A stretch of 20,738 nucleotides of DNA from a virus, in the IMG/VR virus record IMGVR_UViG_3300021963_000796, positions 1 through 20,738 of that record; one strand, given 5' to 3'. Position 1 is the stretch's first letter. Every line of letters begins with the position of its first letter. The notes beneath the pieces were generated by a model that saw nothing but the letters and a program-made list of their open reading frames with translations, did no database searches and was not told where the DNA came from. This document shows, in pieces, positions 14 to 20,531 of the stretch. A program made the translations under genes and the position numbers.

Positions 14-715
14 ATGGGTAAACTGACTCGACTCATCGGAGACATTCATGGCGAATGGGAACTTTATCATCAGACCGCAACGGATGCGATCAACTTCGGC
101 GGGTGTGAACGCACGATCCAAGTCGGCGACTTTGGCGTTGGATTTGCTGGTCCGTATTGGCACGACCGCGCTGACGAGTTCCATTGGGACGGAACGCATC
201 GCTTTATCCGCGGCAACCATGATGACCCTTCACGTTGTAAGAAAATGCCGGGATGGATTCAAGATGGTCTGGTCGAAAATGATGTGATGTTCATCGGAGG
301 TGCATGGTCGATTGATCAAGCCTTCCGTACCGAAGGAACATCATGGTGGGCAGATGAAGAACTCTCGATGGAAGAACTCTATCGAATGATTGCAATCTAT
401 GAGCAGGTCAAGCCTCGTGTTATGATCACACATGATTGCCCTCAGGAAGTAAGCACTCAGATGTTCATTCAGTCGGGTCTTGCTTTGTTCAAGGGTAACG
501 CTAAGACGATTCCGACTCGTACGGCGATGGCATTCAGCACGATGCTTTCTATTCATCAGCCCGACTTTCATTTTTTTGGGCATTGGCACCATACTATGGC
601 GTACAAACATGGTCGCACTACGTTTGTGTGTTTAGGCATCCACGACTACATCGATGTTGATTTGTCAGATTCAGATCAAATTCATGCAGCTATTGCGGAA
701 CGTTGGTCACTTTAG
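14..715 (+). CDS. Calcineurin-like metallophosphoesterase
   Basis: This 233-residue protein carries the ordered metal-binding motifs of the calcineurin-like phosphoesterase superfamily: GDIHG (D10, H12), GDF (D39), GNHDD (N68, H69), THD (H140) and GHWHH (H190, H192). Such enzymes use two metal ions to hydrolyse phosphomono- or phosphodiesters. Small phage members may act on nucleotides, RNA ends or proteins, and the substrate cannot be told from sequence. The ATG follows a GGAGGG Shine-Dalgarno at positions 3-8. The last 26 bases overlap the 3' end of the convergent homing endonuclease gene, yet the protein appears complete, with the GHWHH motif followed by a normal-looking tail. The family is secure; the biological role is not. 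Confidence 0.88.
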   Translation: MGKLTRLIGDIHGEWELYHQTATDAINFGGCERTIQVGDFGVGFAGPYWHDRADEFHWDGTHRFIRGNHDDPSRCKKMPGWIQDGLVENDVMFIGGAWSIDQAFRTEGTSWWADEELSMEELYRMIAIYEQVKPRVMITHDCPQEVSTQMFIQSGLALFKGNAKTIPTRTAMAFSTMLSIHQPDFHFFGHWHHTMAYKHGRTTFVCLGIHDYIDVDLSDSDQIHAAIAERWSL

Positions 716-1274
716 TACAATTATCAAAGTGCCATCTTTTCATAGCTCTAAGTTGTCCATGCTTACCACAGTGTGGGCAACTACCAAAACTATTTGGATG
801 ATTACCGTCTATCATACGTTTGTTATATACGGCTTTTCCACGGTCTTTGCTAGCTTTACCGATCTTATTGAGAGATTCTAACGAATGTTTCTTTCCATAG
901 AATGAATTAGTTTCTCCGGTTTGTCTAACCTTTGCACTAGCCGACATCTTCTTATGTGTTTCTTCACTCAACATTCTGTTAGTATTGTCAACATGATCCC
1001 AACCTCCGAAACCTCCAACTTTTATGTTATACGTATCTTCGCGCAGAACAAACTCTCGAGAAACCAACTCTTTCTCTTTTGCGTACATTTCTTCGGCTGT
1101 ATTAAACGTAAAGAGGATAGACTTTTGAAAGTTTTTAATTCCGTACTTTGCTATAGCATAACCAAGGTGTTTGCCTGAACCAAAGTAATCATCGGTTAGA
1201 TCATTGGTCTTATGAGCGCCTATGTAGATTTTGTTGTTGACAGTGTTAGTAATTTGGTATACGGTATAATACAT
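690..1274 (-). CDS. GIY-YIG homing endonuclease
   Basis: A 194-residue, free-standing GIY-YIG endonuclease of the Seg type, and the only gene on the minus strand. The N-terminal nuclease module has a degenerate first strand (VYQIT) followed by KIYIGAHKT (residues 15-23), YFGSGK (30-35) and the YNIKVGGFGG segment (82-91). The middle contains NUMOD3-like helices (SEETHKKMSASAK, then a NSFYGKKHS segment). The C-terminus has a zinc-finger pattern, CPHC at 166-169 with H182 and C186, typical of DNA-binding tails of phage homing enzymes. These enzymes cut a homologous site in co-infecting phage DNA and spread themselves by repair. An AAAGGAG Shine-Dalgarno precedes the ATG, and an exact TATAAATA box lies just upstream. 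Its last codons are antisense to the metallophosphoesterase 3' end. Confidence 0.9.
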   Translation of the reverse strand: MYYTVYQITNTVNNKIYIGAHKTNDLTDDYFGSGKHLGYAIAKYGIKNFQKSILFTFNTAEEMYAKEKELVSREFVLREDTYNIKVGGFGGWDHVDNTNRMLSEETHKKMSASAKVRQTGETNSFYGKKHSLESLNKIGKASKDRGKAVYNKRMIDGNHPNSFGSCPHCGKHGQLRAMKRWHFDNCTKVTNVPQ

Positions 1275-8861: not shown

Positions 8862-9716
8862 ATGGCCATCTTGGTCGATCTAAACCAAGTCATGATTGCG
8901 AACCTAATGGTTCAGATTGGCAATCATCACAACGCCGAAGTTGACGAGAATATGATTCGTCACATGGTACTCAACTCGATTCGCTTTAATCGTATGAAGT
9001 TCAAGGACGAGTTCGGCGAACTTATCATCTGTGCCGACGACAAAAACTACTGGCGTCGGACACAGTTCCCCTACTACAAGGCTGCACGTCGCAAGAACCG
9101 TGAAGAGTCGGAACTTGATTGGTCCTCGATCTTTGCAGCATTGAACAAGGTTCGTCAAGAACTCAAAGACGTGTTCCCCTACAAGGTGATCCAGGTCGAC
9201 GGGGCAGAGGCGGACGACATCATCGGAACCATCATTCATAAGGAAGGTAAGCTTATGAATGCCGGAGAAAAGTTCCTCATCCTGTCTGGAGACAAGGACT
9301 ACATCCAACTTCACAAGTACGCAAACGTTCAGCAGTACAATCCTGTACTCAAGAAGTTTGTCGTTCACTCAGACCCGGAAGAGTACCTCTACGAGCACAT
9401 CGTGAAGGGTGATGCTGGTGACGGCGTTCCCAACATTCTTTCGGCAGACAACTCCTTGGTCCTGGGCATCCGTCAGAAGCCTGTCACCAAGAAAAGGTTG
9501 GAAGAATGGCTAGATATAAATAAGATGAGTTCAGAAGTTAAGCGCAACTACATGCGTAATAAAGCACTCATCGATCTGGCTGAGATTCCCTCGCATATCC
9601 AAGAAAAAATCCTCGAAGAATATGAACGTGAAAACACGAAGGATCGGTCGCAACTTCTCAACTTCTTCATCCAAAAAAGATTGAAACTACTCACCGAAAA
9701 TCTAGGTGAGTTCTGA
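8862..9716 (+). CDS. rnh: T4-type RNase H, 5'-3' flap exonuclease
   Basis: A 284-residue member of the FEN/5'-3' exonuclease family closest in layout to T4 RNase H (305 residues). The acidic metal ligands are in place: D6 (VDLNQ), the CADD group (59-60) followed by the KNYWRR arch, AEADDII (116-121), LSGDKDYIQL (D144, D146) and KGDAGDGVPN (D184, D187). T4 RNase H removes RNA primers and flaps from lagging-strand DNA. The C-terminal NFFIQKRLKLL segment corresponds to the region contacting the single-strand-binding protein in T4, by analogy only. The gene has its own strong promoter. An exact TATAAATA box (9515-9522) lies in its second half, pointing at the next gene. Confidence 0.9.
   Translation: MAILVDLNQVMIANLMVQIGNHHNAEVDENMIRHMVLNSIRFNRMKFKDEFGELIICADDKNYWRRTQFPYYKAARRKNREESELDWSSIFAALNKVRQELKDVFPYKVIQVDGAEADDIIGTIIHKEGKLMNAGEKFLILSGDKDYIQLHKYANVQQYNPVLKKFVVHSDPEEYLYEHIVKGDAGDGVPNILSADNSLVLGIRQKPVTKKRLEEWLDINKMSSEVKRNYMRNKALIDLAEIPSHIQEKILEEYERENTKDRSQLLNFFIQKRLKLLTENLGEF
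9515..9522 (+). promoter_or_regulatory. T4-type late promoter box inside rnh
   Basis: An exact TATAAATA within rnh, part of a 12-base stretch (9511-9522) that recurs exactly at 11012-11023. It could drive late transcription of the genes at 9729 and 10207. The alternative is a chance match in coding sequence. Confidence 0.45.
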
Positions 9717-11015: not shown

Positions 11016-11023
11016 TATAAATA
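11016..11023 (+). promoter_or_regulatory. T4-type late promoter box upstream of the phoH-PAAR operon
   Basis: An exact TATAAATA, within a 12-base sequence (11012-11023) also found inside rnh at 9511-9522. It precedes the seven-gene run 11079-14376, which includes the PAAR spike-tip gene, and late expression is expected for that gene. A transcript starting near 11030 would pass straight through the terminator hairpin at 11041-11068. Confidence 0.55.
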
Positions 11024-11329: not shown

Positions 11330-12082
11330 ATGCCTCTGCAACAACAAGCAAGAACAACTAAGCGGCAGAAACGAATCAATAAGCAAAACGGGATGCAAGA
11401 CGAGGGTAGAGAACCAAAAGCATTCTTGATGAAAGACGACATCAGTCCCATGACAGAGAATCAACGCGTTGCGTTTGATCAATGGGATAATGGATTTAAC
11501 CTAATGCTGCATGGCATCGCAGGTACGGGTAAGACTTTCATTGGGATGTACCTAGCTTTAGGTGAAGTACTCAAGTCAAACACGCCTTACCGAAAAGTTT
11601 ACATCGTTCGATCTACGGTATCGACCCGTGATCAAGGATTCCTTCCGGGATCGCTGAAAGATAAAGCCAAAGTCTTCGAAGCGCCTTACGTGCCGATCGC
11701 GACCAAACTTTTCGGTCGAGGAGATGCGTATGAGGTACTCAAAGGAAAAGGTATAGTCGAGTTCATCACAACGTCTTATCTTAGAGGCGAAACCTTTGAT
11801 AACTGCATCTTGCTTGTGGATGAAGTTCAAAACATGGGTGATGGTGAACTGCACACAGTTATGACTCGTGTCGGCGAAAACTGCAGGATCCTGTTCTGTG
11901 GAGACGTCAAACAGGATGACCTGACGTCAGAGCGTAAGAAGGAACTATCTGGTTTACGCGACTTCATGCGAATCATCGAACGTATGAAAGAGTTTGAGTT
12001 TGTAAACTTTGAGATCGAAGATATTGTTCGCTCTAAGTTAGTAAAATCGTACATCATAGCAAGGGATAAGCTTGGTTTATGA
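11330..12082 (+). CDS. phoH: PhoH-like ATPase
   Basis: A 250-residue PhoH-family P-loop protein. The N-terminus is basic (KRQKRINKQN), followed by the Q-motif-like PMTENQRVAFD, Walker A GIAGTGKT (62-69), a YIVRSTVS segment, Walker B ILLVDEVQ (about 161-168) and a sensor region RILFCGDVKQ. PhoH-like proteins are RNA/DNA-dependent ATPases, some with helicase activity, and are very common in large phages, where their role is unsettled. It lacks the PIN or KH domains of some bacterial relatives. The stop overlaps the next ATG by 4 bases. Confidence 0.93.
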   Translation: MPLQQQARTTKRQKRINKQNGMQDEGREPKAFLMKDDISPMTENQRVAFDQWDNGFNLMLHGIAGTGKTFIGMYLALGEVLKSNTPYRKVYIVRSTVSTRDQGFLPGSLKDKAKVFEAPYVPIATKLFGRGDAYEVLKGKGIVEFITTSYLRGETFDNCILLVDEVQNMGDGELHTVMTRVGENCRILFCGDVKQDDLTSERKKELSGLRDFMRIIERMKEFEFVNFEIEDIVRSKLVKSYIIARDKLGL

Positions 12083-12547: not shown

Positions 12548-13042
12548 ATGATAGGATTTAAACAATTTATGGAAAGAGCACCTACAAAGAAGTACGTAGC
12601 GGTTCAGTACGACGCAGCAACTCAGAAGAAGCTTCGCAAATGGGCAGAGGATAACGGGTTTGACCTGTCCACCAAGTACGATGGGACAAAGCAGGATCCG
12701 GAAGACTTCGACTTTCACACCACGATCTTCTTCACGTCGTCAAAGCACGACATTCCAAACTACATTAAGACAATTGCTCCTGCAGGTAGCGCAAAAGTTG
12801 TTGACATTATGATGCTTGGGGTTAATAATGACATACCTGTCCTGAAGATCGAGTCACCAATAGTGCTTCGACTACGTAAGCATTTTGAGGATGCGTATGG
12901 TATGGAAGACGAGTGGCCTGAGTACAAACCACATGTTTCCATCTCTTACTCGAAAAATCTTCCTGACATGAACAGTGTGAAACTACCAACGTTTGAACTA
13001 ACGTTTAACCAAGTGAAAGTTGATGATGGAGCCGAAGTATAA
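12548..13042 (+). CDS. 2H phosphoesterase, Acb1-like candidate
   Basis: A 164-residue protein with two HxT/S motifs of the 2H phosphoesterase fold: H57-T-T59 in DFHTTIFF and H129-V-S131 in YKPHVSISYS, 72 residues apart. T4 Acb1 (57B), which cleaves cyclic oligonucleotide signals and blocks CBASS, uses H44/T46 and H113/T115 (69 apart) in a protein of about 150 residues, so size and spacing agree. Other 2H enzymes open 2',3'-cyclic phosphates or act as RNA ligases. The first residues, MIGFKQFMERAP, look like an added tag similar to T4 internal-protein leaders (KTYQEFIAE type). The gene directly follows PAAR. The fold is well supported; the anti-CBASS role is inference. Confidence 0.8.
   Translation: MIGFKQFMERAPTKKYVAVQYDAATQKKLRKWAEDNGFDLSTKYDGTKQDPEDFDFHTTIFFTSSKHDIPNYIKTIAPAGSAKVVDIMMLGVNNDIPVLKIESPIVLRLRKHFEDAYGMEDEWPEYKPHVSISYSKNLPDMNSVKLPTFELTFNQVKVDDGAEV
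12801..12829 (+). promoter_or_regulatory. Possible internal promoter, TTGACA-N17-AATAAT
   Basis: A perfect TTGACA followed by T, with a 17-base spacer and AATAAT (5 of 6), inside the 2H phosphoesterase coding region. It meets the same standard as the intergenic promoters and could serve the two downstream genes, but its position within a gene makes chance more likely. Confidence 0.35.
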
Positions 13043-13715
13043 GCTGATATGTGACGCCAACCTAAGGGTAGGCGAAAAGACCGTTTGTTTCATTCAGGCG
13101 CTGAGAGACTTCGGAGACGTAAAGGCAGGAGACATCGGCGGGGCGATCGAGTCGGAAACCAACCTTGCACACGACGGCGATTGTTGGGTTTACCATAACG
13201 CAAAGGTCTATGGTTACGGTCGTGTAACCGGTAACGCAAAGATCATGGACACAGCAGAGATCTTAGACTATGCGACTGTGGCCGGTGATGCGATAGTTGC
13301 CGGAAATGCAAAAGTTTTCCAACGAGCACTCGTGTTTGATAAGGCTATCGTGGATGGACAAGCATCTATCTACGGAGCGGCTCAGGTCTTTGGCAACTCC
13401 CGTGTGATCGGGTTCTCCCGTGTGCACGAGGACGCGTGGGTATACGGTGATGTGCTCGTAGATGGGTATTCTAACATCACAAGAAAGACTACGATTCGTC
13501 CAATCACACTACTCGGGCTTGAGTACAATGTGACGATCATGGATGAAGATATAAGTATTGATTGTCAGACGAAGTCGTTCGACGAATGGCGAAAGGTTAC
13601 GCGTGAAGAAGCTTTTGCTTTGAACGGTAAACAATCCCTCAAGTTCTTCAATGAGTCATATGACACCTTCGAGTTCCTTGTGCAAAAATATCGAAAGAAG
13701 AAATCCAATGTTTAA
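13023..13715 (+). CDS. Hexapeptide-repeat left-handed beta-helix protein
   Basis: About 230 residues. After an N-terminal cap (YKLICDANLRVG, then DVKAGDIGGAIESETNLAHDGDCWV) comes a run of hexapeptide-like repeats (KVYGYGRV, TGNAKI, DTAEI, YATVAGDAIVAGNAKV and onwards to about residue 150) that would fold as a left-handed parallel beta-helix, usually trimeric. A C-terminal helical part follows (EEAFALNGKQSLKFF). The cap plus repeats resemble widespread phage/plasmid proteins of the YdcK-like type. Acetyltransferase activity is sometimes guessed, but no clear catalytic His or CoA site is seen. ATG at 13023 or 13026 is the start; a TTG at 13020 is less likely. It overlaps the 2H gene by about 20 bases. 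Confidence 0.82.
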   Translation: MMEPKYKLICDANLRVGEKTVCFIQALRDFGDVKAGDIGGAIESETNLAHDGDCWVYHNAKVYGYGRVTGNAKIMDTAEILDYATVAGDAIVAGNAKVFQRALVFDKAIVDGQASIYGAAQVFGNSRVIGFSRVHEDAWVYGDVLVDGYSNITRKTTIRPITLLGLEYNVTIMDEDISIDCQTKSFDEWRKVTREEAFALNGKQSLKFFNESYDTFEFLVQKYRKKKSNV

Positions 13716-17150: not shown

Positions 17151-19286
17151 ATGTCTCTTTTAGCTAAAAAATCTATCCTCGCCCGCCTGCTCGCAAACGA
17201 AAACGTTGCGGTTGAGCAGACCAACCATCACACCGCGTTCTTCGACGTCACGAATCGCGTGCTCGGTCTTCCGTTCTGGAAGGACATCGACAAAGATCTT
17301 TACGATCTTCTTGTCGGCCATGAAATCGGTCACGCCCTCTACACGCCCGCTGACGGTTGGCACTCGTGCACGACCGACATTCCCGGCTGTCCGCGTGACT
17401 ACGTGAACGTTGTCGAAGACATTCGGATCGAGCGTAAGGTTCTTGCCAAATATCCTGGTTTGCTTGCCTCGTTCATGCGCGGCTATCAAGATCTTCTCGA
17501 TCGTGACTTCTTCGGTCTCTCGAAGAAAGGTATCAACGAGCGGTCCTTCATGGATCGCCTGAATGTGTTCTCCAAGTCTCGCGGTTTGGTAGAAGTCCAC
17601 TTCAACGAGAAAGAACAGCCTTACGTCGACATGGCTATGGCCGTCGAGACGTGGGAAGACGTCATCGAGGCTTGCCGTAAGATCTACGAGTTCGTGAAGA
17701 ACGAGATCCAAAACGAGAACGAGACTCAAGACTCTGAGGACTCACAAAAGTCCAGTCTTCCTTCGAAGGTGATCATCAGTGCCGGTAAACCTGGTGAGGG
17801 CGAAAAGGCCGAAGAGCTTTCGAAAGAAGAGATGGAAGCCATCATGAATGGCGACATCGAAGTCGAGATTGATACCGAGTCCTTCGAGAACGCCGGCAAA
17901 GAAGAAGGCGAAGACGAGGGTGAAGACGGTCAAGGCAGTGTTCCTTCGAACGAGGAAGGCGACAATGAAGCCAAACCGACTCCGATCGTTTCGACCGGTG
18001 CTGGTTCTTCTCCGGACAGTGTGGACACCGACAAGGAGTTCCGCAACAACTTCATGAAGAAGCTCGTCGACTCGGTCAATCTAGGTGGCAAGAACCTCTA
18101 CGTGAAGGGTCCGACCGCTAAGCAAGCAATGGCAACCATCAGCGAGTTCAACGACGTCCATGGCGCTCGTTATTCGAAGGTGAAACCTGACGACGAGAAG
18201 TACAAAAAAGCTCTGGCCGAAACGAAGCAGACCGTGATGCTTATGGTCAAAGAGTTCGAGATGCGTAAGGCTGCCTTCCGTTCGGCTCGTGCTCGTGTGT
18301 CGACCAAAGGAAGTCTGGATGTTAACCAGTTGCACAAGTACAAGTATGACGACCAGCTCTTCAAGCAAGTCACCTACCTCGCAGACTCTCAGTCGCATGG
18401 TATGATCATGTTGGTTGACTACTCCGGTTCGATGAATGGCACAATCAAGAACGTTCTCAAGCAAATTGTAGTCATGGTTGCCTTCTGCAAGCGAGTCAAC
18501 ATTCCGTTCGAGGTTTACGGCTTCACCTCAATGTCGGCCGGACAACACTTCGTGAACAAACAGAAAGCCATCATGGCTCATGCTTCCAAGCTGACCAACG
18601 TCGAGATGTCCACCACCCACATCTTCAAACTAATCTCTTCGGACATGTCTAAGCCGGTCTACGAAGAAGCGTATCGTTCGTTGTGGGGTCAGAGTTGCTA
18701 CGGTAGTGGTTACAGAGGTAGCCTCGAGCAGATGAATGGGACTCCGCTGAACAACGCTCTGTTGGCCATGATGCACGTCGTCGAGGCTTTCAAAACAAAG
18801 CACCGTGTTCAGAAGATGAACTTCATCACGCTGACCGACGGTGAGAGTGAGAACATGAACGTGAAGTACGGTGTGGATACTCAAGGACGTGGTCAGAGAC
18901 TCATCGTGAGCCACATGGGGTTCAACATCTCTCAGCAACCCTCGTGGGGATTTGCTGCAGAAAACACTCAGAATATCCTGAAGTGCTACACCGAGATGGG
19001 CGTTCGGACGATGAACTACTACATCAACCCCGATCGTTACAAAATGTCGAGTGCAGCGGTAAAGGCTCTCAAGAGCGAAGGCCTTGCGGTGGTGGACAAG
19101 GATGGTGGTTACGACCGTCGTTTCTTCATGCGGAACAACTCTGATCAGTTGTCCGGCACGGTCGAGGACATGGACTTCGACGATACTGCTTCCTCGTCGA
19201 AGATTGCTCGCGAGTTCTCCAAGCATGCAACCTCGAAGCAGAATGCTCGGACCTTGGCATCAAAGTTTGCTGAAGTTATTTCGTGA
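17151..19286 (+). CDS. Zincin-like and VWA-domain protein (CobT-like)
   Basis: A 711-residue protein with three parts. Residues 50-100 carry HEIGH (57-61) and the downstream VNVVEDIRIERK (86-97), a zinc metallopeptidase-like HExxH with a plausible glutamate third ligand. Residues about 200-290 are an acidic, low-complexity linker. The C-terminal part is a von Willebrand A domain with a complete MIDAS: D423-Y-S-G-S427 and the TDG at 562-564. CobT and related VWA proteins work with MoxR/CobS-type AAA+ ATPases, and such an ATPase is the next gene. The 'cobalt chelatase' label is misleading, since no cobalamin pathway is present. A role in remodelling or cleaving host or phage proteins is inference. 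Confidence 0.87.
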   Translation: MSLLAKKSILARLLANENVAVEQTNHHTAFFDVTNRVLGLPFWKDIDKDLYDLLVGHEIGHALYTPADGWHSCTTDIPGCPRDYVNVVEDIRIERKVLAKYPGLLASFMRGYQDLLDRDFFGLSKKGINERSFMDRLNVFSKSRGLVEVHFNEKEQPYVDMAMAVETWEDVIEACRKIYEFVKNEIQNENETQDSEDSQKSSLPSKVIISAGKPGEGEKAEELSKEEMEAIMNGDIEVEIDTESFENAGKEEGEDEGEDGQGSVPSNEEGDNEAKPTPIVSTGAGSSPDSVDTDKEFRNNFMKKLVDSVNLGGKNLYVKGPTAKQAMATISEFNDVHGARYSKVKPDDEKYKKALAETKQTVMLMVKEFEMRKAAFRSARARVSTKGSLDVNQLHKYKYDDQLFKQVTYLADSQSHGMIMLVDYSGSMNGTIKNVLKQIVVMVAFCKRVNIPFEVYGFTSMSAGQHFVNKQKAIMAHASKLTNVEMSTTHIFKLISSDMSKPVYEEAYRSLWGQSCYGSGYRGSLEQMNGTPLNNALLAMMHVVEAFKTKHRVQKMNFITLTDGESENMNVKYGVDTQGRGQRLIVSHMGFNISQQPSWGFAAENTQNILKCYTEMGVRTMNYYINPDRYKMSSAAVKALKSEGLAVVDKDGGYDRRFFMRNNSDQLSGTVEDMDFDDTASSSKIAREFSKHATSKQNARTLASKFAEVIS

Positions 19287-19367: not shown

Positions 19368-20531
19368 ATGTCCGACGTCCAATTCTTCATCGACGCAGTG
19401 CGCAGTGCACATGACGGTGCTTCCATCTTCACGCGTAAGCAACTGCTCGACTTTGCCAAAGATCGCGGCATGAAGCAGAAGATCGTTTGGGAGACGATCA
19501 AATCGGTCAAGACCTCGTACGGCATCGTTGACCTTTCCGCGACCGTCACCCAACTGCGACCTGATCCGATCGAGACTGCGATCGAGACTGCGATCGAGAC
19601 TGTGGTTGAACCCATCAAGACCAAGGTTCAATCGACCTCGAACGAAGACTGTTACATCCCTTCGAAGTTGAAGACCTACGTCAAGTGGGGCCACGCGAAG
19701 GACGTCACGCAGATCATCGCGTCTCGCATGTTCTACCCCGTGTATGTAACTGGTCTGTCCGGTAACGGTAAGACCATCATGGTCGAACAAGCCTGTGCTG
19801 ACCTGAAGCGCGAATACATCCGTGTTCAAATCACTCCTGAGACCGACGAAGACGACCTGATCGGCGGCTTCCGCCTCGTGAACGGCGAGACTGTCTTCGC
19901 GAAGGGTCCGGTTATCAAAGCGATGGAGGCAGGTGCAATTCTCCTCGTCGACGAGATTGACCGCGGTTCGAACAAACTGATGGCACTTCAAGGCGTTCTC
20001 GAAGGCAAGCCTGTCATGATCAAGAAGACCGGCGAAGTGATCGTACCGAAGAACGGCTTCAACATCATCGCGACCGCCAACACCAAAGGCAAAGGTTCCG
20101 AAGACGGTAAGTTCATCGCTGCGACCATCATCGACGAAGCCTTCCTCGAACGCTTCACCATCACGATGGAACAGCCTTATCCCAACCAGTCGGTTGAGAA
20201 GAAGATCGTGATGAAGCACATGGAACTCTTCGGCGAGGTGTCTGACGAGTTCGCTGAGTTGCTGACCAAGTGGTCGCAAGCGATCCGCAAGACCTATGAA
20301 GATGGTGGCGTGGATGAACTCATCTCCACTCGTCGACTGTGCCACATCGTTCAGACCTTCTCGATCTTCAAGAACCGTAAGAAGGCAGTTGAACTCTGTG
20401 TGTCCCGCTTCGATACCGACACTCGTACGGCCTTCGTTGATCTTTACACGAAGATCGATGCATCTGCTCCAACCGTGACTCCGGTTCCTGCCGATGAAGA
20501 AGATGACTACCGCAACGACTCCCCCTTCTAA
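19368..20531 (+). CDS. MoxR/CobS-like AAA+ ATPase
   Basis: A 387-residue AAA+ ATPase. After an N-terminal domain (about 1-65) and a short repeat linker (IETAIETAIET, 68-78), it has Walker A GLSGNGKT (129-136), the EDDLIGGFRL segment of the MoxR group, Walker B ILLVDEID (191-198), a sensor-1 region (GFNIIATANTKG) and a C-terminal lid. MoxR-type ATPases pair with VWA proteins, matching the upstream neighbour. Similar CobS-like genes are common in T4-like phages of marine and alphaproteobacterial hosts, where the role is unclear. The acidic tail is typical of phage proteins that bind partners. Confidence 0.93.
   Translation: MSDVQFFIDAVRSAHDGASIFTRKQLLDFAKDRGMKQKIVWETIKSVKTSYGIVDLSATVTQLRPDPIETAIETAIETVVEPIKTKVQSTSNEDCYIPSKLKTYVKWGHAKDVTQIIASRMFYPVYVTGLSGNGKTIMVEQACADLKREYIRVQITPETDEDDLIGGFRLVNGETVFAKGPVIKAMEAGAILLVDEIDRGSNKLMALQGVLEGKPVMIKKTGEVIVPKNGFNIIATANTKGKGSEDGKFIAATIIDEAFLERFTITMEQPYPNQSVEKKIVMKHMELFGEVSDEFAELLTKWSQAIRKTYEDGGVDELISTRRLCHIVQTFSIFKNRKKAVELCVSRFDTDTRTAFVDLYTKIDASAPTVTPVPADEEDDYRNDSPF
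19568..19603 (+). repeat. Three tandem 12-bp repeats within the AAA+ gene
   Basis: GATCGAGACTGC occurs twice, then again with a final T, encoding the repeated IETA/IETV linker between the N-terminal domain and the ATPase core. It adds or removes four residues per unit, so length variation between related phages is likely. Confidence 0.85.

Follow-up and report, generated by a model that had tools for sequence, protein, structure and literature searches.

The open reading frame at positions 12548-13042 of the viral DNA analysed here (all 20,738 nucleotides of IMG/VR record IMGVR_UViG_3300021963_000796, hereafter the window) is best described as encoding a divergent Acb1 with a conserved leader that resembles capsid-targeting sequences (CTSs), a feature common to T4's own Acb1. 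We propose that this enzyme is made late, acts against CBASS signals, is docked by its leader, and is packaged and injected, and we give the whole proposal a probability of roughly 0.45. T4-like phages inject anti-defence proteins: IPI acts against the restriction enzyme GmrSD and IPIII against an unknown defence. To our knowledge, there is no earlier packaged enzyme directed against nucleotide-signalling immunity. If Acb1 is packaged, first-strike defence would also cover immunity based on second messengers, and the report of a late onset for T4 Acb1 would have to be re-examined. Even without packaging, a conserved and removable peptide occurs at the N-terminus in much of the Acb1 family, and it is missing from the crystallised FBB1 construct.

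The encoded protein matches the Pfam Acb1 profile (PF23474) over residues 16–154 (E 3.6e-12; 46.7 bits, curated cut-off 27) and the PHROG of the T4 57B type, phrog_755 (E 1.3e-21), scores that speak against a chance match. The annotation of phrog_755 is RNA ligase, which 57B genes also bear; the 2_5_RNA_ligase2 profile reaches 21.9 bits on this reading frame, under its cut-off of 27. The initial annotation had noticed motifs HTT and HVS spaced 72 apart and a core of about 150 residues fitting T4 Acb1. Both readings are borne out: the HTT motif begins with residue 57 and the HVS motif with residue 129, and the core is recovered by the Pfam profile and by the predicted fold. Conservation of the catalytic residues and of Tyr16 was read from an alignment of 36 homologues (A3; Table 1). 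H57 and H129 would carry out metal-independent acid–base catalysis. The serine in place of the final threonine of the HxT/HxT tetrad (S131) is a conservative change, also found in the window protein's relatives.

Table 1 Features of the acb1 locus in the window and, in the last rows, of proteins with CTS-like leaders in contig G001 (loci L021 and L026)
Feature	Position	Strand	Basis or remark
TATAAATA, T4-type late-promoter-like site	11016..11023	+	Upstream of small gene, phoH, PAAR, acb1
PhoH-like ATPase, same operon	11330..12082	+	Homologue of phiM7 gp193; conserved upstream of PAAR-acb1
PAAR spike-tip protein, 99 aa	12242..12541	+	PF05488 E 2.1e-9; phrog_281 E 7e-17
Acb1-family 2H phosphoesterase, 164 aa	12548..13042	+	Pfam, PHROG, AlphaFold2, fold matches
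CTS-like leader MIGFKQFMER (F4, F7)	12548..12577	+	Short helix 4-9 predicted, outside Acb1 core
Second ATG in frame (Met8); may start a leaderless form	12569..12571	+	AGGA motif upstream
Tyr16, equivalent of T4 Acb1 Y12 (base stacking)	12593..12595	+	Nearly invariant, alignment A3
First catalytic motif H57-T-T59	12716..12724	+	H57 and T59 invariant, 36 sequences
Second catalytic motif H129-V-S131	12932..12940	+	H129 invariant, 36 sequences; T4 has HxT
Beta-solenoid (YdcK-like) protein	13020..13715	+	Overlaps acb1 end; conserved next gene, close relatives
CTS-like-leader proteins of G001	L021 9619-10284, 17291-17656, 17653-18882, 18879-19664	-	Leader likeness
CTS-like-leader protein of G001	L026 11924-12931	-	Leader likeness

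The AlphaFold2 model, built from the 36-homologue alignment, has a mean pLDDT of 91 and a pTM of 0.82. In the comparison with Acb1 that the initial annotation had suggested as a check, the Acb1 crystal structures rank best: FBB1 Acb1 (7t26/7t27) is matched with Z 14.8/14.6, over 135 residues at 2.5 Å for 7t26, followed by the BCSR5 phosphodiesterase (Z 13.6 and 13.2), and plant CPDase, LigT and the remaining structures score Z ≤10.5. An RNA ligase or CPDase identity is rejected, since both its profile and its fold scores lie below those of Acb1; the refuting outcome named in the initial annotation, a fold fitting the RNA ligase/CPDase groups better, did not occur. Membership of the Acb1 family and fold is close to certain.

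The substrate is a separate matter. In T4 Acb1, Y12, W74, F107 and W147 form stacking contacts with the bases, and E141 recognises adenine (PMC9117128). Alignment A3 places an aromatic residue, W124, at the F107 position of the window protein and a leucine at W74; E141 and W147 have no counterpart in the C-terminus, where the alignment is gapped, and the C-terminal lid is short in this branch. As W74, E141 and W147 are not kept, the substrate may differ from that of T4 Acb1, and with these lid contacts missing we only infer anti-CBASS activity for the divergent branch, for which descent makes it likely. An Acb1-fold 2H phosphodiesterase acting on a non-CBASS substrate, such as 2′,3′-cyclic or 2′-5′ RNA ends or another signalling nucleotide, would fit the lost base contacts, the short lid and the HxS form of the second motif. 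We consider it unlikely: the two Acb1 crystal sets are the best folds, well above LigT and CPDase, Tyr16 is retained, and W124 keeps an aromatic side chain where T4 has F107. CBASS cyclic di- or trinucleotide alarm signals are the probable substrate of the window Acb1.

The first ~10 residues would form a detachable leader ahead of this core. In the AlphaFold2 model, residues 1–10 are loosely packed with a pLDDT of 61, as opposed to 85–98 in the core, and the structural match to 7t26 starts only at residue 13. The initial annotation had called this N-terminus extra and likened it to the leader tags of T4 internal proteins; the likeness holds, if moderately, through F4 and F7, but the N-terminus is not extra, as T4 57B has a leader too (MMEFKDFSTGLYV, beginning MMEFKDF). 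The full N-terminus of FBB1 Acb1 is MKKLSEFGKGLYV; the crystal construct, G8-D152, excludes this leader, yet it bound a cGAMP analogue (PMC9117128). The leader is missing while the core is kept in L087, L099, Ochrobactrum phage OC (L013), 44RR and Acj9, which marks it as a detachable module. Where present it appears to be selected as a peptide: among 28 pairs of 8 loci of the MKTLKEF group, codons 2–7 show 50 synonymous and 0 nonsynonymous differences. Across leaders, F4 and F7 are retained as adjacent residues vary; T4-group Acb1 leaders are often degenerate at position 7 (for example, MLTFDEAAEG and MADFKSVSTG).

Three other roles for the leader were rejected. That it belongs to the catalytic core is contradicted by the leaderless crystal construct, the low pLDDT and its absence from some homologues; that it is an oligomerisation device in T4, by the monomeric state of full-length gp57B (PMC8076793); and that it is kept merely for the nucleotide composition of the translation start, by the excess of synonymous differences. 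A limited search of the Acb1 and T4 head literature found no mention of the leader. Start codons of leaders were checked by hand, the gene finder's initial choice in the window being Met8. Many Acb1 leaders have a methionine at position 8 (FM), an in-frame start directly after the leader, and leadered and leaderless Acb1 could possibly be made from one gene.

For T4 IPIII, residues 1–10 are enough for head entry; residues 4 and 7 are decisive for targeting and residues 8 and 10 for processing, and a single change at residue 10 stops processing but not targeting (PMC9026906). F, Y or L stands at both positions 4 and 7 in 24 of 33 hand-picked, related Acb1 N-termini, counts that are not independent events because the homologues are related. 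We scored leaders with a matrix of four internal-protein leaders, known or annotated (two from T4, one from S16 and one from FBB1, the last being our own internal-protein assignment), with 531 N-termini as the control set. The Acb1 of the 195-kb IMG/VR contig G001 ranks 4th of 284 genes and T4 57B 6th of 252; among 32 Acb1 leaders, 17 score at roughly the level of the top 1% of the controls. The window leader is a moderate match, in the top 2.4% only, as it lacks Lys-Thr at positions 2–3; leaders of relatives lie nearer the consensus (MKSFSDFLAEQ, MKTFREYIMEQ). The sequence after the window leader, FMER-AP, has no prohead protease (gp21-type) site of the form [LI]xE-[AGS]. Aeromonas Ah1 57B (MLKSFSEFTEANKQ) has a cleavage-like FTE-A, and such sites occur in some relatives only. 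We consider it possible, at somewhat less than even odds, that the window leader acts as a signal for capsid targeting and that Acb1 is packaged in this phage.

Other proteins have similar leaders. T4 gene 61.1 (54 aa; L032 = NC_000866, 18966-19130, minus strand), with the N-terminus MKTFKEFIKEDMVAGD, ranks third of 252 T4 proteins on the same matrix, after ipII and ipIII, and may on its sequence be an unrecognised capsid-targeted peptide. Further CTS-like leaders in G001 are MKTFKQIIAEA (a DUF5824 protein), MIRFNTFLTEA (DUF6267), MKRFRVFVEE, MKSFLQFLQTEE and MQSFKHFFVEQ, and TATAAATA sites lie at L021 19694 and 13567 (minus strand). These proteins possibly form a set of head-packaged proteins in this phage group.

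The genes around acb1 also bear on the head. In the T4-like group, one or more genes with an MKT[FY]..F-like leader lie within ~700 bases after acb1 in 11 of 13 contigs; ipI is the gene right after 57B in T4, and the proteins that follow Acb1 begin MKTYQEF in S16, where the protein is annotated as an internal head protein, and MKTYKEF in FBB1. Acb1 thus heads an internal-protein locus in this group. Prohead-core proteins at the gp68 position begin MKSFKQLVET in phiM7 and MIKFSKLFET in G001, similar to Acb1 leaders.

The window virus is a T4-superfamily phage. A DNA search with the complete window matched none of 50,697 phage records, and a search of bacterial genomes with alignment A2 found no relative. 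Relatives are IMG/VR contigs, including G001 (Acb1 80% identical), and Sinorhizobium phages phiM7, phiM19 and phiN3 (35% identity). The order rnh, phoH, PAAR, acb1, exonuclease is the same in phiM7 and the window; in phiM7, homing-type endonucleases stand in between. PAAR ends 6 nt upstream of acb1 in the window and lies directly or nearly upstream in most non-Straboviridae relatives, a neighbourhood that recurs in diverse contigs, often with a few-base overlap. This conserved adjacency would suit an Acb1 that rides at the tail tip together with PAAR, the product of the gene upstream, like some type VI effectors, and enters with the spike. We find such a ride highly improbable: no PAAR-binding adaptor or fusion was seen, the T4 PAAR gene (5.4) is distant from 57B, and two genes separate PAAR from acb1 in some relatives. 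In L078, and similarly in L068 and L072, a baseplate or fibre protein gene adjoins acb1 and PAAR lies two genes upstream.

Two further observations concern these genomes. phiM12 (L036, NC_027204, around 113308-114136) has a short phoH of 258 nt, and PAAR, acb1, exonuclease and endolysin are unannotated where phiM7 has them, which suggests a deletion at the phoH-PAAR-acb1 locus and a natural acb1-minus relative of phiM7. In the window, an open reading frame for a CobT/VWA-type protein (17151-19286, plus strand; phrog_459, E 8e-156) is followed by one read as a MoxR-like AAA ATPase from a P-loop-like motif (19368-20531, plus strand); together they read as a putative chelatase-like pair.

Late transcription of the operon is suggested by the T4 late promoter core, TATAAATA, found 1.5 kb upstream of acb1 in the window. 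G001 has 41 copies, as opposed to 1–3 in shuffled sequence, and its sites precede the sheath, tube, protease, scaffold and major capsid genes. Several relatives have the motif at about −1530, a distance similar to that in the window, and L071, L089 and L090 have it at −471 to −429 (~430–470 bases before acb1), close to PAAR. In all, 28 loci, which are related, have 23 sites in the orientation of the genes and 5 in the opposite one. The motif was found by direct counting; a Markov-model ranking of overrepresented 8-mers did not bring it up. A further copy at 9515 is doubtful as a promoter, as it lies within rnh, at the same coding place in G001, and may be a coding coincidence. The sites in the window and its relatives make late expression of the acb1 operon likely, and acb1 would be transcribed, at least partly, late, along with PAAR. 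The replication-type genes (rnh, phoH) in the same operon make some early or middle transcription likely as well. Promoter motifs, and relatives that have acb1 downstream of tail genes, support the initial annotation's reading of a probable late operon behind PAAR. Late-promoter-like sites are also found elsewhere: a GIY-YIG-like homing endonuclease reading frame in the window (690-1274, minus strand) has TATAAATA at 1299 (minus strand), 17 bases upstream, and many homing-endonuclease-like frames in G001 show the same arrangement.

Packaging is made plausible by leader positions 4 and 7, the modularity of the leader, the T4-type late-promoter-like sites and the leader-bearing genes after acb1. 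Most probably, the leader would dock Acb1 on the prohead core in the manner of the CTSs of T4 internal proteins; some copies would then be enclosed in the head and delivered to the next host with the DNA, the leader probably uncut. What is known of T4 itself leans the other way, as does the missing protease site in the window leader. In T4 infection at an MOI of 2, lysates cleave cGAMP from about 15 min only (PMC9117128), so T4 virions deliver no readily measured activity. IPI is loaded at ~360 copies (PMC9958956), and an IPI-like load of Acb1 might, depending on the detection limit of the assay, have been visible earlier than 15 min. A study that left out final-virion proteins retained gp57B (PMC8076793), and our search of mainly freely accessible literature found no virion proteome naming gp57B.

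Both the onset of T4 activity at about 15 min and the place of gp57B outside the counted virion proteins would be expected of an ordinary Acb1, made late, degrading CBASS signals in the same cell and not packaged, with a leader that is a vestige of exchange with neighbouring internal-protein genes or an aid to translation or stability. The degenerate T4-group leaders, and their loss in 44RR and Acj9, fit as well. The purifying selection on the MKTLKEF-group leader, the retention of F4 and F7 despite change in adjacent residues, and the near-consensus leaders of close relatives argue against it, and we rate this alternative as a serious one that falls short of even odds. The broader statement that T4-superfamily Acb1 is an internal head protein, injected to destroy CBASS signals before phage gene expression, we also rate as somewhat less likely than not.

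Among known systems, T4 gp57B and Erwinia phage FBB1 Acb1 (7T26/7T27) stand closest to the window protein. It shares with them the 2H fold, the catalytic histidines, the tyrosine at T4 position 12, an M..F..F leader ahead of the first strand and a probably late-acting context. It differs in its low identity (~15–18% over the alignment), in HxS rather than HxT as the second motif, in the absence of T4's W74, E141 and W147 and of a long C-terminal lid like that of T4, and in a linker ~5 residues longer; its gene is linked to PAAR and PhoH, whereas that of T4 is linked to 57A and internal proteins. The Burkholderia phage BCSR5 phosphodiesterase (9Q2G/9Q2Y) has the Acb1 fold in common (Z about 13) but a lid conformation of its own. 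Sinorhizobium phage phiM7 gp196, annotated as RNA ligase, is 35% identical, has its own leader, MLTLREFL, and shares the gene order with the window as phoH-(homing endonuclease)-PAAR-acb1-(HNH)-exonuclease, but has a TTG start. As opposed to T4 IPI, IPII and IPIII, the window leader has Ile-Gly at positions 2–3 in place of Lys-Thr and no IxE-A site, and its cargo is a nuclease-type enzyme whose packaging is putative. Similar to these internal proteins, it has an N-terminal leader of ~10 residues, aromatic at positions 4 and 7, in a probably late operon.
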